From Deltaproteobacteria bacterium (lineage in GTDB: Bacteria > JAGRBM01 > JAHCIT01), in NCBI GenBank assembly GCA_026129095.1, contig JAHCIT010000001.1, forward strand, positions 372,245-436,244: 64,000 bases of DNA, written 5' to 3'. How positions within the stretch are numbered: position 1 is the first letter of the stretch; each line of letters opens with the position of its first letter. Of the stretch, positions 8,701 to 64,000 are shown one piece after another. Under the pieces are notes generated by a model, which saw nothing but the letters and a program-made list of their open reading frames with translations, was not told where the DNA came from and ran no database searches. Both the position numbers and the translations under genes were made by a program.

Positions 8701-9750
8701 TCAGCGAAACGCCTCCTCCGGCTCCAGTCCGAACATCCTGAGCCAACCGCCAAACCGGCCCTCATCAATGGGCCACCGGCGCTCCAGTTCCAGCCGCTCG
8801 GCCCACAGGCTATTCCGCCGTTTCCATACATCACGATGCGCACGGAACATCGCACTGGCCAGCGGCAAGGCGCCCGATCTCATTGCGCTCTGGACAGTCC
8901 GCCCACGGTTAGTGACGAACGCCGCGATGCCGGAACCCAAACGACGCCCCAGCTCGACAGGGGATCTCCGGATGTAGTGTTGCGGGTAGTGCCTCAACAG
9001 GTTGTACAGCCGGTTCCGTTCGATCAGATAGAACCGCTCCGGACTGGCTGCACCAAGCACATGGGCGCCAGAATGAATGAACCGGGAACCTGGAATCCGG
9101 CGGCAGAAATGGCCTGCCCGGCGAAGCCGCATCCCCAGATCAAAATCGTCCCCGTATGCGAAATAAGATTCAGCAAGACCGCCCACATCCAGAAGCGCTT
9201 CTCGCCGGTACAATCCGGCCGCTCCGCTGGGACAGAATGCATCCGGCTCCCGGTCAACCTGTCCCGAATCCTGCTGGCCGCAACCAGCACCCCGGTTCAA
9301 CCCGTCAGAAAACAGTCCCAGACCAAAGGCATCAATCCGGCCGCTGGATTGCAGACCGGCCGGATCAGCTACCAGTATTTTGGGAGCGAACATGGCCGCA
9401 ACGGACTCTCCCTGAACCGCATCCATCAGTCGCCCCAGCGCACCAGGCTCCGGCCGTGCGTCCGCATTGAGAAACAACACCCAAGGGGCTTCGCCCGCTT
9501 CAAGCAGCCGGTTGTTCGGTGCACAAAAGCCAAGGTTACGGCCCGACTGCCCGAACCAGACACGGCGCCCCTGCTGGTGGTGCCACTCCAGCTCCCGTGC
9601 AATGAGAGCTGCCGACCCGTCACCCGATCCATTGTCGAACACGAGCAGCTCATAATCTTCAAATCCGCAATTACGAATGAACGCGAAGGTCTTGCCCAGT
9701 TCGGCTTCGCTGTTCAGGCTGACGATCTGTATCGATAGGCGGGCAGGCAT
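8701..9750 (-). CDS. Glycosyltransferase family 2
   Basis: A 349-residue GT-A glycosyltransferase, probably a rhamnosyltransferase-type enzyme of surface polysaccharide or LPS synthesis. The nucleotide-sugar fold starts at residue 6 (IQIVSLNS), FDNGSGDGS (38-46) is the family loop, NADA (95-98) takes the place of the metal-binding DxD, and YFAYGDDFDLGMRLRRAG supplies the catalytic acidic pair. No transmembrane segment, so it is cytosolic or membrane-associated. The ATG at 9750 has only a short AGG close upstream. The donor and acceptor are unknown. It stands alone between convergent and divergent neighbours. Confidence 0.88.
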   Translation of the reverse strand: MPARLSIQIVSLNSEAELGKTFAFIRNCGFEDYELLVFDNGSGDGSAALIARELEWHHQQGRRVWFGQSGRNLGFCAPNNRLLEAGEAPWVLFLNADARPEPGALGRLMDAVQGESVAAMFAPKILVADPAGLQSSGRIDAFGLGLFSDGLNRGAGCGQQDSGQVDREPDAFCPSGAAGLYRREALLDVGGLAESYFAYGDDFDLGMRLRRAGHFCRRIPGSRFIHSGAHVLGAASPERFYLIERNRLYNLLRHYPQHYIRRSPVELGRRLGSGIAAFVTNRGRTVQSAMRSGALPLASAMFRAHRDVWKRRNSLWAERLELERRWPIDEGRFGGWLRMFGLEPEEAFR

Positions 9751-9919
9751 ACCTGTTCATTATGGCCTAGCGGCGTAGCACCCCAAACCCCGGCTGAGGA
9801 GGACCCGATTCTGGACTTGTGCGGTAGGTCACGTTGCTCTAGGCTGGCTTGTTAACATTCTGCGGCACCGCGTTCTCGAAGGCCGGGGGGAAAAGGCCAT
9901 TACGGGGGATCAGTTCCAG

Positions 9920-12070
9920 ATGTTGAGGCGATTTTTACTGAAAGGCCGCGTCACTGGCCTGGTAGCAGGGATACTGCTGGCAATGGTGCCAGATCGCGCC
10001 ATGGCCAGTTCAGCACCGGTATTCGATCAGGTTAACCGCTATCTGCATGCACAGGTGCTTTCTGGCGCAGCCACGGCCGATCTTCATCAGGTTCCGCTGG
10101 CATCGATTCGGGTAATGGCGCTCGGAGCCGGCGGTATGCAGCCGATACCGTTCCAGATCGACGAGCGGCTTCCCGACGGAACCTTTGTCGCCGACCGCGG
10201 CAAGGTCACCCGGGATGATACTCCAAACCTCCTGGATGCCGATGACGAAATCGTGTTCCTGGTGCGGGATGCCGGTTTTCGTGCGCCGAAGAATGCCTGG
10301 CCCAAGGGTGCCCTGAAGTCGGTAGAAATCCAGCTTAGCGATCCATTGGGCGGGACCACTGGATACGTGTACCTGTTCGCTTTTGGCGGGACACCCCCGC
10401 GGATGAGTGAACGCCGTCACATCTCGTACGACTCTGCTCTGGACCGGACGAGCAGCGATACCGTCTCTATCGGTTTCGATCGCAAGATGCCGATCATGCT
10501 CGACCACGGCGTATTCAAGCGTATGAATGACAGCGGCCGGGACAAGGATGTGATCGACCGGCTCAAGATCCGTATCAAGGCCGTGACTTCGGCTGGTGTC
10601 ACAATCTCCCGCAACGAGGAAGAGTTCACCCAGGAACTGACAGGAGTCCGGGTCGGACCCGTTCGCGTGATTCGCTCACTGCAATTGTCCGTGTCCATAC
10701 CGCCGATGCCGACCGTGCCAATCAGCGTCACATTCCTCATTTACCCTGATTACGTGGATGTGCCTGTCAATTTCGAGATTCCCGGACTCGTCAGCATGTT
10801 CATGAAAGACATGGTGGTGAACGTTGGCGTCGATTTTGATGGCATGCAGAACACAACTTTTGCCACCCTCGAACGGCCACGGGGCACCATCGTTGACGGA
10901 CAGCAGCCTGAAATCGAGCGCTACATCCCCATGGGCTCCGAAGAGTGGTTCATGATGCAGGGACGCGGCCTCAATACGTTTGTCGTGTTTGAGCTGGACA
11001 AGGAACTGAAAAAGCGGAGACTGAAGAAAGAGATCCATTTCATGGACTCGACTGATGGCTCCAATCCGCCCGAATCGATTCCCGGCCAGCTTCCCGAGAT
11101 CGGCTTCGCCCTGTCTCAATGGGGCGGCCTTGAGGCCCGTAAATACTATTTCGAGGCAAAGCTTCACTTCCTGTGGGAAGCTCCCCAGCAGGGGGGTAGC
11201 GGCTATTACAAGTATCTCATGACGCCGCTCAAAACTGCAGCATTACCAGGCGAAGATGCGACTGTGCTGATCGCCAGCGAAGCTGGAGATTCCGCAGGAG
11301 AAAAGCTGGCGGCACAGCTCCGGGAAAAACTGGGTACGCTGGCCAGCACCGGAACGGTCAAATCAATGTCCCGGCCTGCCATTGGACAGAAGCAAAGCCC
11401 CAATGTGGTTATTCTGACCGGGATGCCGCCGCTGCCAGCCGTACGCGCTGAAATCTCCCGTAACGGCAGCTACGCCGTCCTGGCCGGCGAGGAAACGAGG
11501 CACCTTGAAGACGGAATCACCTCTGTCGGGCTTGTCGTGGGGCCTCGCGCCCTGCTCGGCCTGATTCGCCAGTTTTTTACCGGAAAAGTAAAAGCAGGGC
11601 TGGTCATTTCCGGACTTTCCCGTACCGAACTGAAAGATTACACCGATGGCGCCCAGCGGCTTTCAATTGAACTGGTACAGCTCAAGCCCGGCCCGGACGG
11701 GCGTATTGATGCCGGTCAAACGGCTGACCTTAACGTGATCCTGGTTCCGGGCGGCGAGTCATGGACCAGTGGAGGTGGCAAGGCGTTCGCCGAACTGCTC
11801 AAGTCGGCCCACGCTGGCGGAGTTCCCGTACCGGTGTTCACCAACAGCCGGGAGCTCGTTGGACTTGGTGCCACGGTCGGTGCCGAGCCTAACATAGGTG
11901 CCGGTGCCGATTACTTGACCGCCATGGTGCAGCGCTATCTGCGGGGTGAAACCATGCAACCCGAAAGCGGGGCAAGCCAGTTCCTGAAGATCTATCTGAA
12001 CCGGGAAGGCGTCCGCAGTTCACGGCTTCTGGTACCACCAGCACTTATCCGGCTTGCGGAAGCAATGTAA
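9920..12070 (+). CDS. Secreted two-part protein, paralog A of an unnamed family, with PBP-like C-terminal region
   Basis: A 716-residue protein with a Sec signal peptide (basic residues 3-10, hydrophobic 11-23, likely cut near 30). Residues about 55-290 align by eye with the protein encoded at 26202-27689: both have SIRVMA (62-67), PIPFQID (75-81), an acidic DDEIVFLVRDAG block, a GxVYLFAF strand and GPVRVIR. The C-terminal part from about residue 445 looks like a periplasmic-binding fold: VLIASEAGDSAGEKLAAQL at its start and FLKIYLNREG...LLVPPALIRLAEAM at its end, the latter resembling the end of ABC_sub_bind (PF04392) proteins. I do not recognise the N-terminal family. Periplasmic or outer-surface location is inferred; function unknown. 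Confidence 0.8.
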   Translation: MLRRFLLKGRVTGLVAGILLAMVPDRAMASSAPVFDQVNRYLHAQVLSGAATADLHQVPLASIRVMALGAGGMQPIPFQIDERLPDGTFVADRGKVTRDDTPNLLDADDEIVFLVRDAGFRAPKNAWPKGALKSVEIQLSDPLGGTTGYVYLFAFGGTPPRMSERRHISYDSALDRTSSDTVSIGFDRKMPIMLDHGVFKRMNDSGRDKDVIDRLKIRIKAVTSAGVTISRNEEEFTQELTGVRVGPVRVIRSLQLSVSIPPMPTVPISVTFLIYPDYVDVPVNFEIPGLVSMFMKDMVVNVGVDFDGMQNTTFATLERPRGTIVDGQQPEIERYIPMGSEEWFMMQGRGLNTFVVFELDKELKKRRLKKEIHFMDSTDGSNPPESIPGQLPEIGFALSQWGGLEARKYYFEAKLHFLWEAPQQGGSGYYKYLMTPLKTAALPGEDATVLIASEAGDSAGEKLAAQLREKLGTLASTGTVKSMSRPAIGQKQSPNVVILTGMPPLPAVRAEISRNGSYAVLAGEETRHLEDGITSVGLVVGPRALLGLIRQFFTGKVKAGLVISGLSRTELKDYTDGAQRLSIELVQLKPGPDGRIDAGQTADLNVILVPGGESWTSGGGKAFAELLKSAHAGGVPVPVFTNSRELVGLGATVGAEPNIGAGADYLTAMVQRYLRGETMQPESGASQFLKIYLNREGVRSSRLLVPPALIRLAEAM

Positions 12071-12075
12071 TCATC

Positions 12076-12089
12076 GCCGGTTTACCGGC
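12076..12089. terminator. Short GC hairpin between convergent genes
   Basis: GCCGG-TTTA-CCGGC forms a perfect five-base-pair stem six bases past the stop of paralog A. On the plus strand it is followed by AAGTCTCTTTC, only a weak T-run. It may end transcription of the convergent pair; this is weak evidence. Confidence 0.3.
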
Positions 12090-12098
12090 AAGTCTCTT

Positions 12099-12536
12099 TC
12101 AATGACGGACGACGGTGGTACTGCGTGCCCTGAAAACGACCTTGCCGCTCCGGTCCGTGCCTTCCTGGTCGACGACGAGAAAGTCCATCCCGCCTGACTT
12201 TCCATCCTTGGTGTATATATCGGCAATCTTCTGCGTAATAGTGATGGTCTCACCAGCCAGCAGTGGCCGTTCATATTCAAACCGCTGGCCGCCATGTAGA
12301 ACCTTGGTCATGTCAATGCTGAGTGCATCGCGCATATTGAACTTCGGCCGGAAGATCGTCGCAAAGGTCGGCGGAGCCGGAATGGCGGCATAACCTGCCG
12401 CCTTCGCCGCACCTTCATCGAAATATATCTCGCTGGTATCGCCTATGGCCTCCGCAAAACGGCGGATATGCCCCTTTTCAATATCAAAAGTCTCAGGCGG
12501 TGAGGTTAAACCGATTTTCGATTTGTCGAGCGGCAT
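12099..12536 (-). CDS. MaoC-like hot-dog dehydratase (N-terminal FAS1-like type)
   Basis: A 145-residue single hot-dog protein. It contains RFAEAIGDTSEIYFDEGAAK and PAPPTFATIF, typical of the MaoC dehydratase N-terminal (FAS1-like) family, then LHGGQRFEYERPLLAGETIT and KVVFRARSTTVVR. Family members hydrate enoyl-CoA or hydroxyacyl-CoA thioesters, or pair with a second small MaoC subunit. The partner with the full D-x4-H catalytic loop is not next door, so this may be one half of a heterodimer or a non-catalytic form. ATG 12536 is chosen because AGGGAA lies seven bases upstream; the longer frame from 12647 would overlap the divergent gene. Confidence 0.82.
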   Translation of the reverse strand: MPLDKSKIGLTSPPETFDIEKGHIRRFAEAIGDTSEIYFDEGAAKAAGYAAIPAPPTFATIFRPKFNMRDALSIDMTKVLHGGQRFEYERPLLAGETITITQKIADIYTKDGKSGGMDFLVVDQEGTDRSGKVVFRARSTTVVRH

Positions 12537-12637
12537 CGCTGATTTCCCTTCCGTGCCCGTGTATTCGGGAGCCAGACTGATAGTAAACTTGCCACAAGGT
12601 AGCAACCACCTTGCCGAATACGAAGGGTCTTGCCGGA

Positions 12638-14023
12638 ATGGCATCAAGGCGACACATCTGGCTGTGGATCACTGGCGTGGCTGCAGCCACGGCCGCAGTG
12701 TTCGCCGGCTTCCAGGCGGTTCATGCCACGACGGCCACTTTCGCCGTTATCGTCATTTCGGCAATCGCCGTCGGGGCCGCCAGCCTGTCGAGCCGCTGGG
12801 CATCAGACAGTTTCGATGACCGCCGGTTTCTGTTCCGGATATTTCTTGTTGGCTACTTTTTCCGGCTTGCGATCGCCCTGTTCCAGTATTTCTACCTGAC
12901 ACCGGACTTCTTCGCCCCTGACCAGAACGCCTACCACCTGTTTGCCAGCATGGGGGCTGAGCGGATGGAGGCGGGGCTTGCCCCATTCCCCGAAACCGCA
13001 CTTCGTCACAGGCTTTATGTCATTTATTGTGCGTATCTGTACTACCTGTTCGGAAGCGATATCCTGCTGCCGTCGCTTCTGAATTCGATATACGGCTGCC
13101 TGGCTGCCATGGCCGCATACCGGCTGACTGCAATGCTCGATACTCCCGAGGCTGGGCGTTACACGGCTCTGCTCGTCCTTTTCACGCCTTCCCATATGCT
13201 CTGGTCTGCCCTGAACCTGCGCGATGTTCCGGCAATTCTCAGCCTTATGTTTGCCGTCTACTTCATGACCCAACTGAAGCTGAAGTTCTCTTTCGCTGCC
13301 GTTCTCGGATTCGTGCTCGCCATGCTCGTCCTGCTGGGACTCCGCGACTATATTTTCTTCCTGACACTGGGTTCGCTTCTGATCGGATATCTGGGGGTAC
13401 GTTCGGGCCGCATGCTCGAATTCATGGCTGGCGGCATTCTGGTGATGAGTGCCTCCATCTTCCTTTATAACGCGGTTCCGGACGGCAATCCTTTCGCCAG
13501 ACCAGCCACTCTTGCCGATATACAGACATACCGTCAGGGATTTCTTTCAGATGCGTCTTCCGCCTTCCTGCCCGATGCAGATGTTTCCACTCCGGCAGGG
13601 GCCCTACTGTATTTCCCGATAGGCCTTGCCTACTTCCTGCTGGCACCGTTCCCGTGGCAGTGGGGCTCACCCCGCCAAATCATCGCCGTACCGGAAACAC
13701 TGCTCTGGTATTCGCTCATTCCCGCCACCATTGCCGGCTTTGTCCATATTGCCCGGACACGCCTAGGCACGACCCTGCCGCTGCTGATCCTGATTGCGTC
13801 GGTTACGGTCAGCTATGCCATGGTGCAGGGAAATATCGGAACGTCATTCCGCCACCGTGCACAGGTGATCGTTTTTCTCTATGTGTTTTCCGCGATCGGA
13901 CTCCGGCTCAGGCGCACGCCGCAGCCGAACCCGCCTGTGCCGGGCGGCCATCCAGCCACATCCGCTCAAGCGATGGCCCGTGTGCAGGGCGTGTCACCGA
14001 CAGCACCGCCCGCTCAAGCGTAA
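12638..14023 (+). CDS. Polytopic membrane protein, GT-C glycosyltransferase-like
   Basis: A 461-residue membrane protein with roughly ten hydrophobic segments. An early loop contains FAPDQNAYH with an Asp, and a later loop SALNLRDVPA; both fit the layout of GT-C (dolichyl-phosphate-sugar-like) glycosyltransferases such as GT39/PMT, but no family motif is strong enough to name it. I use ATG 12638; the TTG at 12611 only adds nine residues. The last 40 residues (from about RRTPQPNPPVPGG) are Pro/Ala-rich and hydrophilic. They are encoded opposite the end of the M16 peptidase, so the reading frame probably continues past its ancestral stop. Likely works on cell-surface glycans. Confidence 0.7.
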   Translation: MASRRHIWLWITGVAAATAAVFAGFQAVHATTATFAVIVISAIAVGAASLSSRWASDSFDDRRFLFRIFLVGYFFRLAIALFQYFYLTPDFFAPDQNAYHLFASMGAERMEAGLAPFPETALRHRLYVIYCAYLYYLFGSDILLPSLLNSIYGCLAAMAAYRLTAMLDTPEAGRYTALLVLFTPSHMLWSALNLRDVPAILSLMFAVYFMTQLKLKFSFAAVLGFVLAMLVLLGLRDYIFFLTLGSLLIGYLGVRSGRMLEFMAGGILVMSASIFLYNAVPDGNPFARPATLADIQTYRQGFLSDASSAFLPDADVSTPAGALLYFPIGLAYFLLAPFPWQWGSPRQIIAVPETLLWYSLIPATIAGFVHIARTRLGTTLPLLILIASVTVSYAMVQGNIGTSFRHRAQVIVFLYVFSAIGLRLRRTPQPNPPVPGGHPATSAQAMARVQGVSPTAPPAQA

Positions 14024-16556
14024 GGTATTTCCGGGCGGCCTTCAGGACGTCCTCACGCGTAACCGCACGAATACGCTCGGGAAATTCCAGATGATGCTTG
14101 ACGCCGAGGCCGTACAGTCCGTTCAGCGCCATCGTGCTTGCCTGGGAACCGCTCCGCTGGAGGTCAATCTCGAAGGTGCCGGTCAGATATCGTTGCGCGC
14201 GGCTGATCTCGTCGCGTGCCACCAGTTGCTGTCGCACACGGTCCAGCTCCGCCTCCATTGACTGAAGGGCCTGAACGAGCTTGTCCGGCGACGTGCCGAT
14301 ATAGGCCGCGAACAAGCCCGTTCCGATCCCCTCGGTGCTTGACGTTGCCACCGTATAGGCAAGGCTCTGACGGTCCCGAAGCTCACGGAACAGCCGACCA
14401 CCCTGTCCGCTCAGGATCGTATTGAGTATTTCCAGTGCATAACGGTCTGGACTATGAAGCGAGGCTCCCAGAAAGCCGATGGCCAGATGGGCCTGCGACC
14501 TGTCCGCTATCTCCTCGACATACTGGCGGCCGGACAATACGGGGGCCACATGACCGGATACTGTGGCACTGGCCGGGGGCTGGTAACGTCCCGCCTCCGC
14601 GCTGAACCTGTGTACGATCTCCTCCGTATCCACGTCCCCCACCACGGAAATCCAGAGGCCCGATGGGTCCATGTGACGGCGGTACAGGTCCGAGAGCGCG
14701 CCGGAGCTGAACCCCCTGACCGTGTCAGCCCGTCCATGAAGGCGAAAGCCGTACGGATGGGCTCCGTACAGGGTCTTTCGCAGGTTCGCGAAAGTGAGCG
14801 ACGAAAGCTGGTCCCGCTCGCGCTCGATGGCTGCCAGCGTTTCCGACCGCACCGCCGGGATTTCCGCTTCCGGGAAAACCGGGTCCAGAAGCAGCTCTGT
14901 GAAAAGGCTGATGGCCCGGTCATGGAAACGCGACAGGGCGGCCACCTCTATACCGAGGCTGTTCCGGCCAGAATACCCGCCCGCCGATCCGGCTATCGCA
15001 TCCGCCTCGCGGGCGATCTCCTCGGCCGTGTGACGGCCAGTACCCTTGGACAGCATTTCGGCCATGAACGAGCCTATCCCCTCGGTTTCCGGGGTTTCAG
15101 CAAGCGATCCCCCGCGAACGGCACACTTGATCGCGAGCGTCGGAGTGCTGTGCCGCTCGCGCACGACGAGCTTCGCTCCGTTGGGCAGTTCGTGGATGGA
15201 AATATCGTCGCCAGGAAGAAGTTTCGGCCGTGTAGCCACCTTAATGGTTCGTCCCGGATGGCCATGCCGGTGATAGGCGCCATGAACGGTTTCGGCGAGA
15301 GATTCCCGCTCCGCCTTCGCGGCGGCGGGTTCTCCTGGGCCGAACAGGCCGAACGTCAGGTTCCGCTCATGCAGGTATTTACGGGCTGCGTCACTGACCT
15401 GGTCCGGTGTGGTGTTGGCGAGACGGTCCAGATAGCGTTTTTCGAAATCCAGATCCTGTGCGGTCATGTGATAAAAACCCCATTTGCGGGCGAGCCCCTG
15501 AACAGTCTCCTTGAGATAAACCAGATCGCTCTCGATATTCAGCCGTGCGCGCTCGAATTCGGAACGGGCAGGCGGATCCTTCTGGATGCGGACCACCTCG
15601 CCTATCAGCTCACCGACAGCTTCGGCTTCCCTGCCAGCGAACAGGTTACCGCCGGCCATGAAGACACCAGGGTCACGTGGCGTGTAGGCGCCGGCGTACA
15701 CCTCCGAGACAATGTTTTTCCGGTATTTCAGCTCACGGACGAACCGTGAACTTTCCCCCCCACCCAGAATCGTAGAGAGCAGGTCCAGCGCCACGCTGTC
15801 CTCGTGGACGACTCCCGGAATGTGCCACGCCATCGACAGATAGGTGTCATTCATGTCCCCACGCTCGACAAAACCGCGCATGGCCTTCTGGGCACGCTCG
15901 ACCGGACGGCGCGGGCGGCGGACCGCATGGCTCCTGACACCCCGGAATGCCTTCTGGACGAGCGCGAACGCACGCCGGGGATCCACATCCCCCGCGATCA
16001 CGACCGCCATATTGGAAGGGGTATAGTACTTACGGTAAAAATCGAGGACGTTTTTCCGCCGGAAACTCCGGACACTGGCAGCCGTTCCGATCACTGGCAG
16101 CCGGTATGGGTGGTGCTGAAAGGCAGTGGAGAATATCCGCTGGGAAAGCCTCCGGCCGGGCTGGTCATCCCCGCGGCGGATTTCCTCCAGAATGACTTCC
16201 TGTTCCCGGGCCAGTTCTTCAGGATCAAATGCCGGGTGTAGAACAGCGTCGGTCAGTACATCCAGTGCCCGGTCAAAGAACCGGCTGGCCGAAACAATGT
16301 AGTAGACTGTCTCGTCGAAACTGGTATAGGCGTTGATTTCTCCTCCCAGTGCCTCGATCTCCGCAGCGATCTCGCCGGTCCCCCGCCTTTTGGTGCCCTT
16401 GAACAGCATGTGCTCATGAACGTGCGCGAGCCCTGCCTCGGCATGGGTTTCATCCGCCGACCCTACCCCCACCCAGACCTGGACGGCCACGCATGGCGAG
16501 GTGTGGTTCTCGTCGACAAAGACATTCAGCCCGTTGGATAGGCGGCGGTGTTCCAT
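13908..16556 (-). CDS. M16 family zinc metallopeptidase, double-domain (pitrilysin-like)
   Basis: An 882-residue protein formed of two M16 units in tandem. The first carries the inverted zinc motif H-x-x-E-H (His45, Glu48, His49 in AHVHEHMLFKG) and a downstream EEI helix for the third ligand. The second (from about residue 450) has FMAEMLSKGTG at the equivalent place and so lacks zinc ligands, as in pitrilysin and mitochondrial-type pairs. No signal peptide is seen from this start. ATG 16556 is chosen because AGGAGA lies five bases upstream; the open frame runs 36 codons further without a better site. It would degrade peptides inside a closed chamber. Its last 116 bases overlap the convergent GT-C-like gene. 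Confidence 0.93.
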   Translation of the reverse strand: MEHRRLSNGLNVFVDENHTSPCVAVQVWVGVGSADETHAEAGLAHVHEHMLFKGTKRRGTGEIAAEIEALGGEINAYTSFDETVYYIVSASRFFDRALDVLTDAVLHPAFDPEELAREQEVILEEIRRGDDQPGRRLSQRIFSTAFQHHPYRLPVIGTAASVRSFRRKNVLDFYRKYYTPSNMAVVIAGDVDPRRAFALVQKAFRGVRSHAVRRPRRPVERAQKAMRGFVERGDMNDTYLSMAWHIPGVVHEDSVALDLLSTILGGGESSRFVRELKYRKNIVSEVYAGAYTPRDPGVFMAGGNLFAGREAEAVGELIGEVVRIQKDPPARSEFERARLNIESDLVYLKETVQGLARKWGFYHMTAQDLDFEKRYLDRLANTTPDQVSDAARKYLHERNLTFGLFGPGEPAAAKAERESLAETVHGAYHRHGHPGRTIKVATRPKLLPGDDISIHELPNGAKLVVRERHSTPTLAIKCAVRGGSLAETPETEGIGSFMAEMLSKGTGRHTAEEIAREADAIAGSAGGYSGRNSLGIEVAALSRFHDRAISLFTELLLDPVFPEAEIPAVRSETLAAIERERDQLSSLTFANLRKTLYGAHPYGFRLHGRADTVRGFSSGALSDLYRRHMDPSGLWISVVGDVDTEEIVHRFSAEAGRYQPPASATVSGHVAPVLSGRQYVEEIADRSQAHLAIGFLGASLHSPDRYALEILNTILSGQGGRLFRELRDRQSLAYTVATSSTEGIGTGLFAAYIGTSPDKLVQALQSMEAELDRVRQQLVARDEISRAQRYLTGTFEIDLQRSGSQASTMALNGLYGLGVKHHLEFPERIRAVTREDVLKAARKYLTLERAVLSVTRPAHGPSLERMWLDGRPAQAGSAAACA

Positions 16557-16719
16557 TTTCTCTCCTGAATCCGGCAGCGGGAGCAGTCCGGCCGCCAGAT
16601 TTCCAGTCTGGCATATTTTCATCCGCTGGCGAGCTGGGGCAACCCCATGACACCGGAAGCCCATGGACCACCCCCGATGAAGCCGCTAACGTCTTCCCTG
16701 CAGGGAGAGTTTGTACCCA

Positions 16720-17367
16720 ATGAAAGCCTCCGAAGAACAGGAAATACCCGTTTTCATTGTCACGGAGACGGTGCTGTTTCCCGGCACGACTGCCCAGGTA
16801 AACTGTTACGAGGATGACCCCGAACGGCGGCTGATCGAGGAAAACTACGTCCACGGACGGGAAATCGGGGTTTTTCTGGCCGACTCATCTACCTGGGGGA
16901 CTGACGACCCCCGGCCGTTGCCAGTAGGATGCAAGGCACGCATTCTGGACTGGGAAGACATCTCTCCCATGGACAGGCTTGCGAGAGTCCAGGGCATCTC
17001 CCGGCTCCAGATCGTCGACTGGGTGTCAAGCAATCCCTACCCCAAGGCCATCGTTCAGGAAGCAGAGCCCTCCCGGGGGATTCTGGGCAAGCCGGTGGAT
17101 CCGAAACAGACGCAGCGAATCCGGGCCGGACTTCAGGAACTGTGCTTTCTCCAGGGCGGCGAGGAGTATACCCGGCTCATTCCCCTGCTCGATGTGCAGA
17201 AAGAACCTGGACAGCTGGCTGACTTCGCCGCGTTCCATCTGGTCCGCGACATCTTTCTGAAGCAGGAGTTACTCGAAACGCTGGCACCAGCCGACCGGCT
17301 CGACACCATCAGCCACTGGCTGAACGGGGAAATGGGCCGCCATTCCCCTCGCCCATCCGGTCCGTAA
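16720..17367 (+). CDS. Stand-alone Lon N-terminal (LON substrate-binding) domain protein
   Basis: A 215-residue protein matching only the N-terminal LON/PUA-like domain of Lon protease (PF02190). Landmarks are IPVFIVTETVLFPGT at the start, EIGVFLAD, then GCKARILDWEDISPMDRLARVQGISRLQI. The helical C-terminal third (LETLAPADRLDTISHWL) matches the end of the domain. There is no AAA+ or protease part. Bacterial proteins of this kind are of uncertain role, perhaps substrate recruitment. ATG 16720 is used; AGGGAG ends ten bases before it, within the 12-base palindrome TCCCTGCAGGGA. An alternative TTG lies at 16711. It runs divergently from the M16 gene. Confidence 0.88.
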   Translation: MKASEEQEIPVFIVTETVLFPGTTAQVNCYEDDPERRLIEENYVHGREIGVFLADSSTWGTDDPRPLPVGCKARILDWEDISPMDRLARVQGISRLQIVDWVSSNPYPKAIVQEAEPSRGILGKPVDPKQTQRIRAGLQELCFLQGGEEYTRLIPLLDVQKEPGQLADFAAFHLVRDIFLKQELLETLAPADRLDTISHWLNGEMGRHSPRPSGP

Positions 17368-25579: not shown

Positions 25580-26134
25580 CTAACGGCCCTGACGATCCCG
25601 GCTGATGCCATCGCACGATGCGGCATAAGGCCCGGCCGGTATGCCCAGTTCGGCACGGCAATCACAGTTTGCCTCCAGAACCATGCGGCAGGCCTCGACA
25701 ATTCCAGGCCGGAGATCTTCCCGGACGCTACTCACATCTTTTGGCGGAAGGCTGATCCGGAATGGAGCGATGGAAATCATGGAGTCACAGGGCGACACAA
25801 ACCGCATCTGGAACTTGAGTGAATTGCTGCTGCATTCGGGACTTTCAATAAAAGCACTGATAGCAAATGCCCGGCTGCTGTCTTCGACCGGACTGAACCT
25901 GGATAACCCGCCGTCAGGAACAGCCTCGCCGCCGCAGGCGGCAATGAACCGCCCGGCTGCCCGCTGGGCCTGAATGCCGATCTCATTGCAGACGTCAATC
26001 GTGGGGCGAGTCTCGATGCGCATCCGGTTCAGCCAGATGGCAAGACCCGTGAAGAGAACAAGCAGCCCGCCGCCCACAATCATGAGCTGCTTGCCACTGA
26101 CCATTTCCGATGGTTCCGGTGCGTTCGCTGGCAT
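25580..26134 (-). CDS. Hypothetical membrane-anchored protein, cysteine-containing
   Basis: A 184-residue protein not recognised. One transmembrane segment (about residues 17-34, LMIVGGGLLVLFTGLAIW) follows a short N-terminus, leaving about 150 residues outside if it is N-in. The outer part has several cysteines (for example CNEIG, AACGG, SPECSS, VSPCDS, EACRM, NCDCRAE), which could form disulfides in the periplasm. It starts at ATG 26134, 67 bases after the stop of paralog B on the same strand, so the two may be co-transcribed. The function is unknown. Confidence 0.6.
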   Translation of the reverse strand: MPANAPEPSEMVSGKQLMIVGGGLLVLFTGLAIWLNRMRIETRPTIDVCNEIGIQAQRAAGRFIAACGGEAVPDGGLSRFSPVEDSSRAFAISAFIESPECSSNSLKFQMRFVSPCDSMISIAPFRISLPPKDVSSVREDLRPGIVEACRMVLEANCDCRAELGIPAGPYAASCDGISRDRQGR

Positions 26135-26201: not shown

Positions 26202-27689
26202 CTATCTGGCTGTGTACTGCAACGGGTTGTCGAGAATATCCAGGTAATGCTTTTCATCGCCCGGTTTGAAGGGGAAAGCGAGGTACTGGAAAAACGTAAT
26301 ATTGAACTTGCCCTTGGGGAAAGTCAGGAGATCCACGTCGTAGCCAACATAGTGGTAACCCTTTTCATTCTCGGGGGGGTCTTCCCGCTCGGCATCATCT
26401 TCAAACCGGAACATCATCTTCACGTTCTTTTTCTGGAGTTCCTCGTCAAAAATCAGCCGTGCGATGATTGCTGCCTCCTCGTCCGGCTTGTAGACGGCGA
26501 ACCAGGGACGGCCTTCTTTTTCGGAAGCGAGATTCACCTCTTCGGGAGTCATTTTGCCATCAATAACGAACGGCTTGGCCTGTCCAGTCGTGAATACCTG
26601 GGCACCATAAACCGATGTCCTCAAGTCCACGCCGCCACTGAACATGGAACCCTCGCGAAGCATGTATTTTGGATTGAACGGATTGAATATCTCTGTCGGA
26701 CCCTGGAGCTGATTGTCATAAAACTTGAAATAGACGATCGCCTTGGGAAAAAATGGCAGCTTGATCCCGCCAATCACGATCCAGAAGATATTGCGCCGAA
26801 TGACACGTACGGGACCGTCAATATAGCCGGCCGTAAAGCTTTTCACGTTGTTCTCGTCGAAATTGAGGGTGAAGAACATGATCGGCCGGATCGTGATCCG
26901 AAGTTTGAACCGGTCCAGCACGTTCGGCTGGGATTTACCGGTCTTCTGGTCCTTTCCGATAATCTTTTCGAGCACCAGCGGCTTGTCGTCCACGAAATCC
27001 AGAACGGCGAACTTACTCTCCACGGTATCGCTTTTGGGGTCATAGGTGATGTAGTCCGCCGGACTGAGCGGGGGAGGGGATGACGGATATGATGCCACGT
27101 ATATCCATCCGGCAGTCTTGTCGACCGGATTACGAATCGTGACTTCAACTATCTCGGCATTTTGTGGCAGTTCATCCGGACCCGCACGATCACCTGCATC
27201 CCTGGCCATGAACACCAGTTCGTCGTTGAAATCAAACTCGTCGAGTTTTTCTTTCCATGTGGCGGCACGCTTGCGGGCCTCGAATGCGGCCCGGGAAAGC
27301 TTCCCGCTGCTCACGTTCTCTTCCAGACGCTTCTCTTCGCGGCGAAACTCCTTCTCCCGGTCGCGGGCGCGCTGCTCCTCGGTCCGGGTATCCCATCCGG
27401 TTTCATCGATAACCTGTTGCGACATGGACCCGGTTGGAATCATGTAGTTGCCGTCAGGATCAAGCTTGTCGATCTGGAAGGGGATGGACTGAAGCACGCC
27501 ATCCCGCCTGGCCATTACCCGGATGGAGGCTGTCTTGCGGTCCCAGAGTTTCTGGAGCAGTTCCCCCTGGAGAACCGATGGATCGGCATGCCGGGAAAGC
27601 GTTCGCGTAGCCTGGGCGAATGCCGCCCCTGGAACAGCCAAACCGGCAGCCAACAGAACATAAAAAGCAGTTTTTGCACGCAAATGCAT
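26202..27689 (-). CDS. Secreted protein, paralog B of the 9.9-12.1 kb protein
   Basis: A 495-residue protein with a Sec signal peptide (residues 1-25, ending AAFA). It shares with the protein at 9920-12070 the blocks SIRVMA (55-60), SIPFQID (68-74), NDELVFMARDAG, GWIYVASY and GPVRVIR in the same order, so the two are clearly related. Between blocks two and three it has an extra charged, probably coiled-coil insert rich in E and R (RTEEQRARDREKEFRREEK). It lacks the PBP-like half of paralog A and instead ends in a region of aromatic beta-strand character (FNITFFQYLAFPF). ATG 27689 is used with GGA four to five bases upstream; GTG 27698 is possible. Family and function unknown; export is inferred. 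Confidence 0.78.
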   Translation of the reverse strand: MHLRAKTAFYVLLAAGLAVPGAAFAQATRTLSRHADPSVLQGELLQKLWDRKTASIRVMARRDGVLQSIPFQIDKLDPDGNYMIPTGSMSQQVIDETGWDTRTEEQRARDREKEFRREEKRLEENVSSGKLSRAAFEARKRAATWKEKLDEFDFNDELVFMARDAGDRAGPDELPQNAEIVEVTIRNPVDKTAGWIYVASYPSSPPPLSPADYITYDPKSDTVESKFAVLDFVDDKPLVLEKIIGKDQKTGKSQPNVLDRFKLRITIRPIMFFTLNFDENNVKSFTAGYIDGPVRVIRRNIFWIVIGGIKLPFFPKAIVYFKFYDNQLQGPTEIFNPFNPKYMLREGSMFSGGVDLRTSVYGAQVFTTGQAKPFVIDGKMTPEEVNLASEKEGRPWFAVYKPDEEAAIIARLIFDEELQKKNVKMMFRFEDDAEREDPPENEKGYHYVGYDVDLLTFPKGKFNITFFQYLAFPFKPGDEKHYLDILDNPLQYTAR

Positions 27690-27818
27690 GTAATCCACCC
27701 CGGCAATAGAACTGTCTCCTTAGCACGCCGCCTGTGTCTCTCGCCATAGGCATTGGTTCTTCCGGCCGGATACACTTCCAAGTGCTATCCGGATGAAAGG
27801 CGGTACGGCCCCGTCATT

Positions 27819-63321: not shown

Positions 63322-64000
63322 GTGCGCGACTTGTCGCATACCTGGCGGCCTGCTTCCCGATGGGGAGGCGGGCCGTATTCAGTGGTGGTTCTGGTGCTGT
63401 ATGGCTGCCTGGCCTCAGTCCCTTCCGCTGCGTACGCGCAGGACAGCGAGCCAGGTGCACTAGAACTCCCCTCCGTTGTCGTCGAACGTGAGCGCACCGT
63501 TGCCGAGAGTGAAAACGAGCGCGACTCGACCGGTGCCGTCACAACGATAGAGCGAAAAGAGCTCGACCGGCCCGGCGAGAACCTCGATCAGGTACTGGAC
63601 CGGCAGGCAGGAGTGAGCGCCGTCCGGCTCGGCGGGCTTGGCGACTTTTCCGCCGCTTCGATACGCGGGTCCAGCTTCGATCAGGTTCTGGTTTTTCTGG
63701 ATGGAATCCCACTAAATGCCGGGCTGGGCGGAGCGGTCGACCTTTCGGCCCTGCCTCTTTCGCATATCGAGCGCATGGAGATTTACCGCGGCTTCGCACC
63801 GGTCGAAGCCACCGCGAGTGCCCTTGGTGGCGCGGTATTTCTTTCCACCCGTGAACTGGAAAAGGAAACCCTGTCGGCCCGTGGCGGATACGGTTCGTTC
63901 AATACGATATCGGCGGGCCTCTTTGGCGGCGGGCTGATTGATTTCACCGGGAACGAAAAAACCAGAATGGCCGCGGGCCTCGATTTCATGCACTCAAGGG
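63322..64000 (+). CDS. TonB-dependent receptor, BtuB-like (C-terminus cut by window edge)
   Basis: A frame open to the window end, 226 codons. The start is GTG 63322 with GAGGAGGG eight bases upstream; this start was not an ATG, and other frames here are poorer. It has a long signal peptide (hydrophobic SVVVLVLYGCLASVP, cut near AYAQ). A TonB-box-like LPSVVV is next, then a plug domain: LDQVLDRQAGVSAVR, ASIRGSSFDQVLVFLDGI, IERMEIYRGFAPVEA and GGAVFLSTRELE. The barrel has only just begun at the edge. The cobalamin riboswitch directly upstream indicates uptake of B12 or a related corrinoid across the outer membrane. Confidence 0.93.
   Translation, partial: MRDLSHTWRPASRWGGGPYSVVVLVLYGCLASVPSAAYAQDSEPGALELPSVVVERERTVAESENERDSTGAVTTIERKELDRPGENLDQVLDRQAGVSAVRLGGLGDFSAASIRGSSFDQVLVFLDGIPLNAGLGGAVDLSALPLSHIERMEIYRGFAPVEATASALGGAVFLSTRELEKETLSARGGYGSFNTISAGLFGGGLIDFTGNEKTRMAAGLDFMHSR

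Follow-up and report, generated by a model that had tools for sequence, protein, structure and literature searches.

An uncatalogued family of exported, predicted supersandwich proteins with a solute-binding-type fusion and, in another phylum, a TonB-receptor operon

Two genes of the window, a 64,000-nucleotide stretch of a Deltaproteobacteria bacterium genome, encode proteins A and B, which are homologous, exported members of a protein family without a name; in A, the shared domain is followed by a C-terminal half that resembles periplasmic binding proteins (PBPs). The joint statement that the two are homologous, that the family is nameless, that both are exported and that A carries a PBP-like half is one we hold to be very nearly certain. 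The function of these proteins is a more tentative matter, with extracytoplasmic ligand capture as the leading candidate. Since no Pfam or NCBIfam profile describes the family, its genes would receive no name from those libraries, and the nameless family spans many phyla, is present in 11 copies in this genome and forms part of a near-universal operon in another phylum.

Two Exported, Homologous Proteins in the Window

Proteins A and B are related (BLASTP: 95 bits, E 8e-25, 441 columns), and the five sequence blocks by which a previous sequence-only reading had connected them all lie inside this alignment in the same order. That reading had set the shared region at residues 55-290 of A; the segment is indeed homologous, but it was drawn too short, as the similarity extends to about residue 389. 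The proposed relationship of the N-terminal regions survived pairwise, whole-genome and profile searches alike. The idea that the resemblance reflects chance or composition, with no family behind it, could appeal to the low identity of the pair (26%), but it is refuted for practical purposes by the pairwise E-value, by the strength of independent single-sequence matches and by 173 relatives in other genomes.

Export of both proteins, also claimed earlier, agrees with an evident signal peptide at the start of each (Table 1). The start of B is taken here as the GTG at 27698, giving 498 aa, while the ATG at 27689 chosen in the sequence-only reading gives 495 aa. B further contains a charged insertion, and the paralog C3_232 has one of the same kind.

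Table 1. Features of proteins A and B and of the gene block around A (positions within the window)
Feature	Coordinates	Strand	Description	Basis or remark
Syntenic block around A	8701..17367			Same gene order in a second genome, from another family of the order
Protein A	9920..12070	+	716 aa; signal peptide, family domain, PBP-like half	Intact ORF
Signal peptide of A	9920..10006	+	About residues 1-29, ...DRAMA/SSAP (slash, cleavage)	Read by eye from translation
Family domain of A	10025..11233	+	About residues 36-438, predicted all-beta	11-paralog alignment and AlphaFold2 model
Q-I-D-E motif	10154..10165	+	Residues 79-82	Q79 in 87/87 and D81 in 86/87 of the wider family
D-D-E-I-V-F motif	10241..10258	+	Residues 108-113	D109 and E110 invariant in 11 paralogs
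G-P-V-R-V-I-R motif	10655..10675	+	Residues 246-252	R249 invariant in 87/87
PBP-like half of A	11237..12067	+	About residues 440-716	Remote similarity to ABC_sub_bind (PF04392)
Protein B	26202..27698	-	498 aa; signal peptide and family domain, without PBP half	Intact ORF
Charged insertion of B	27243..27410	-	About residues 97-152, between QIDK and NDELVF	Gap in the A/B alignment
Signal peptide of B	27615..27698	-	About residues 1-28, ...GAAFA/QA (slash, cleavage)	Read by eye from translation

Copies in the Genome and Their History

A whole-genome search recovered 11 family members scattered over the 3.67 Mb genome (23 contigs). All reach profile E-values of 1e-149 or better, which are not independent since these copies are the rows of the profile itself; single-sequence matches, independent of the profile, go down to E 3e-74. 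The earlier picture of two paralogs, of which only A has a PBP-like half, is right for the window but not for the genome, where three of the 11 copies (A, C1_296 and C2_483) have the additional C-terminal half, some 250-280 residues long. One other genome of the same order yielded 16 matches, some of them fragments at contig ends, and matches were found in 3 of the next 39 genomes; because the comparison genomes jump from the same order to the same domain, the window's lineage is very sparsely sampled in this set.

In a tree built by a quick method, with SH-aLRT support only, A groups with two proteins of the sister family that show the same fusion; B is placed together with three sister-family proteins and one further paralog of this genome. 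A shares 43% identity over 420 columns with its sister-family orthologue. The separate groupings indicate that the split between the lineages of A and B predates that between the two families of the order. The tree makes A and B ancient paralogs from separate sub-lineages, and a recent local duplication was rejected because these lineages are distinct and older than the split of the families. Members with the PBP fusion sit close to the base of the unfused "short" clade, in a node order that is not strongly supported; this basal position would fit a loss of the fusion in the "short" clade.

A scan of 84,980 species genomes provided the 173 relatives, of which 80 were kept. They belong to Deltaproteobacteria-type lineages, Planctomycetota, KSB1/Calditrichaeota, Gammaproteobacteria, Nitrosomonadaceae, Gemmatimonadota, Saprospiraceae and others, and some bear additional beta-propeller, FN3, cadherin-like or Ig-like domains. 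A type IX secretion (T9SS) sorting domain was detected at E<0.01 in 22 of 28 FCB-group members and exceeded the NCBIfam cut-off in both of the FCB-group members tested at that level. The Deltaproteobacteria-type copies are mostly solitary and have no specific recurring neighbor; the acyl-CoA ligases, histidine kinases and ABC ATPases that recur near them are expected of abundant gene families.

Predicted Fold and Conserved Residues

Neither Pfam, NCBIfam nor PHROG models match the shared domain, and no PDB chain was matched by single sequence or by profile, so the earlier description of an unnamed family holds. Searches with the family gave no match among plasmid records and no informative match in a viral structure library. 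AlphaFold2, supplied with residues 28-445 of A and an alignment with 86 relatives, produced a nearly all-beta model with a pLDDT of 90.2 and a pTM of 0.91. Foldseek against the PDB returned 61 matches at E<=0.001, mostly to carbohydrate-active proteins, with TM-scores of at most 0.50. The top matches are supersandwich proteins, the best being GalM, GH38 mannosidases, LacZ and a PL26 lyase (E 2e-6 to 5e-4); a copper amine oxidase and a holo-translocon chain are also included. We take the galactose-mutarotase-like supersandwich to be the fold that these matches have in common.

The closest structural counterparts of the A model are GalM, the C-terminal regions of GH38 enzymes and LacZ, and PL26, at TM-scores of 0.33-0.50 by query length and 8-11% identity, and without a sequence-profile match to any PDB chain. 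From the model, the family domain is probably a galactose-mutarotase-like supersandwich, an assignment to be read with the modest TM-scores, which make the topology of the remaining part less certain. The domain is uncatalogued, yet not fold-novel. PcRGLX_1st (PF19501), suspected from a Q...DG motif, is absent from this genome, and the likeness to PL26 consequently comes from Foldseek only.

Across 87 sequences, Q79, D81, G119, Y151 and R249 show no or almost no variation, and the 11 paralogs share invariant Q79, D81, D109, E110, Y151, D213, R218 and R249. As the wider set was fetched with the search pattern D-x-[ND]-D-E-[IL]-V-F-[ML], the conservation of this motif within it is partly ascertainment; the 11 paralogs were found by whole-protein similarity, and motif conservation among them is free of this effect.

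Fold and residues together bear on the main rival to ligand capture, namely that the domain works enzymatically on extracellular polysaccharide (as a lyase, epimerase or hydrolase), with the PBP half, the T9SS tail and the propeller fusion merely localizing it or binding its product. Many supersandwich proteins are parts of polysaccharide-acting enzymes; most of the Foldseek matches are domains of carbohydrate-active enzymes (GalM, GH38, LacZ and PL26); the polar residues Q79, D81, D109, E110 and R249 are invariant; and in two families of the order the gene for A has kept a family-2 glycosyltransferase gene as its neighbor. In GH38, LacZ and PL26, however, catalysis belongs to a domain of its own, next to the supersandwich. 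The family proteins have no such catalytic domain, and no CAZyme gene cluster surrounds the 11 copies of this genome within the scanned part of their neighborhoods. An enzymatic role is, in our estimation, rather unlikely, although it is the most serious competitor.

The C-Terminal Half of Protein A

The PBP-like nature of the C-terminal half of A, proposed in the sequence-only reading, was corroborated by profile methods. A profile built from five halves (A, C1_296, C2_483 and two sister-genome proteins) matched the PDB entries 3lkv (E 6.6e-6) and 6hni (E 1.2e-3). PF04392 itself matches three of the five homologous halves, with a best E of 2.2e-4, A's own half not being among them, and hhalign aligned the five-half profile with two genuine PF04392 proteins of the genome over 246 columns (probability 96.5%, E 8e-10). 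On this profile evidence, the half is a remote solute-binding-type domain. Its profile similarity to ABC_sub_bind proteins (PF04392; 3lkv, 6hni) is full-length, but in A the half is fused behind a beta domain of 400 residues, and, in contrast to ABC_sub_bind systems, there is no ABC permease or ATPase among the scanned neighbors of A. PF04392 belongs to a set of 45 Pfam families by which solute-binding proteins have been defined, and members of such families can also be sensor domains (PMC9602780).

Elsewhere in the genome, on contig C4 (L128:1462-2730), a genuine PF04392 protein has about 90 extra residues before its binding domain; PBP domains may accordingly be fused repeatedly to N-terminal beta modules in this organism.

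A Remote Link to DUF4861

The profile of the 87-member family aligned with that of DUF4861 (PF16153) over 53 columns (probability 87%, E 4e-6), whereas 12 column shuffles and a reversal used as controls gave E 0.18 or worse. The profile of the 11 paralogs of this genome reached only E 0.017, and hmmscan with PF16153 found no match for A or B at E<=1 and none in the genome. The N-terminal section of the family domain is alignable with DUF4861 and shares with it the motif IP-x-Q-x-D-[DE]...DG, in which IP-x-Q-x-D corresponds to Q-I-D-E of A, and DUF4861 proteins are likewise exported; beyond this section, the remaining length of the family does not align. A remote relationship, based on the N-terminal section and the shared motif, is accordingly likely, and a function found for either group would inform the other. 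A literature search returned no function for DUF4861 and no mention of it. DUF4861 proteins, many with a lipoprotein-like start, are present in 69 of 73 genomes of one order (L130, L132-L160), which makes the DUF close to a core gene in that order.

A Three-Gene Operon in KSB1-Type Bacteria

In KSB1/Calditrichaeota, an operon combines a family protein, usually with a T9SS tail, a two-domain lipoprotein and a TonB-dependent receptor identified by Pfam PF00593 and PF07715. Examples are found at L080:8007-12825, L049:207-5138 and L094:5155-14580, among others, and L078 and L094 each hold two sets back to back. The lipoprotein, of about 280 aa or, in a shorter version, about 155 aa, has no Pfam or NCBIfam match.

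Of the 12 strongest lipoprotein matches in whole-genome searches of 15 KSB1-type genomes, 11 adjoin a family gene, and these 11 include contigs outside the set from which the link was defined (G127:C447, G119:C1). Among 79 genomes sampled from the KSB1-type phylum, 70 gave a lipoprotein match. At the 20 top lipoprotein loci, drawn from genomes that were not fetched through the family, the family gene lies just upstream in 17 and the receptor just downstream in 18, both missing receptors falling at contig ends; as these loci are the best-scoring ones, linkage may be less frequent for lipoproteins that are more distant.

The arrangement recalls SusCD-type pairs in that the gene for a TonB receptor with a CarboxypepD_reg-like extension is accompanied by those for a surface protein and a lipoprotein. 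It departs from them in three respects. The receptor, of about 730 aa, comes closest in NCBIfam to heme, B12 and siderophore receptors without passing any of the curated cut-offs; the lipoprotein is modeled as two beta domains (pLDDT 86, pTM 0.71) and not as a helical SusD; and the third component is the family protein. A literature search produced no report combining KSB1, a TonB-dependent receptor and a lipoprotein.

Foldseek matches of the lipoprotein model are mostly pilins and adhesins at low TM-score, which lends something to another rival, in which the family has a structural or chaperone-like role in the envelope (as part of a surface layer, as an adhesin or in assembly) and binds envelope proteins and not a nutrient. 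The FN3, cadherin-like and Ig-like fusions of some members, the holo-translocon chain among the Foldseek matches of A and the scattered, mostly solitary genes would also be in keeping with such a role. A solute-binding-domain fusion and a TonB-receptor operon would nevertheless be unusual for a purely structural protein, and we regard this reading as improbable.

Ligand Capture as the Leading Reading

The fusion and the operon are independent arrangements, each testable, and both point to extracytoplasmic ligand capture. Family proteins may thus serve as extracytoplasmic ligand-capture proteins, a tentative proposal whose chances we put somewhat below even. In KSB1-type bacteria, the family protein would reach the surface by type IX secretion and deliver its ligand to the lipoprotein and TonB receptor encoded next to it. 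In A, the beta domain would be tethered to a solute-binding module, so that a ligand caught by the former could be handed to the periplasmic binding protein or sensed jointly with it. The paralogs would differ in ligand. The relatives of the fold suggest a glycan as the ligand, by analogy, while the nearest curated relatives of the receptor hint weakly at a small cofactor such as heme.

Several observations weigh against ligand capture. Its weak point is the window's own genome, in which 11 copies face two TonB plug domains and neither A nor B has a transporter as its neighbor. The conserved polar residues Q79, D81 and R249 would suit an enzyme or a metal site equally well, a half of the type-1 binding-protein kind can also serve as a sensor domain (PMC9602780), and both the modest Foldseek TM-scores and the mostly solitary state of the Deltaproteobacteria-type copies count on the same side. 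A bolder version of the proposal, doubtful as it stands, would make the family the surface part of an undescribed TonB-linked uptake system, composed of a secreted supersandwich protein, a two-domain lipoprotein and a TonB receptor and present in almost the whole KSB1-type phylum; the capture domain would, in the window's order, have been rewired to a PBP fusion and multiplied to at least 11 copies.

Gene Surroundings of A and B

In the scanned neighborhoods, neither A nor B is flanked by a transporter gene. The genome has only two TonB plug domains, against 11 family copies, and for this reason a TonB-receptor partnership within this genome was judged unsupported. One of the plug domains is located at the right end of the window (63517-63834), and the other TonB-dependent receptor gene lies about 8 kb from the paralog C1_296.

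The block around A comprises genes for a family-2 glycosyltransferase, A, a MaoC-like dehydratase, a multi-pass membrane protein, an M16 peptidase and a LON-domain protein; in the other-family genome that has the same block, A is duplicated in tandem. Strands alternate around A, which is therefore probably transcribed alone. The multi-pass membrane protein (12611-14023, 470 aa), without a Pfam or NCBIfam match, stands beside A in both families.

Membership of B in an operon with a signaling pair was considered and rejected, its neighbors being an NtrC-type regulator, a cysteine-desulfurase-like enzyme and a Na/Ca exchanger with no clear link. On the same strand, 67 bases downstream of B, a 184-aa ORF (25580-26134) with an N-terminal transmembrane stretch and no Pfam or NCBIfam match is possibly co-transcribed with it.
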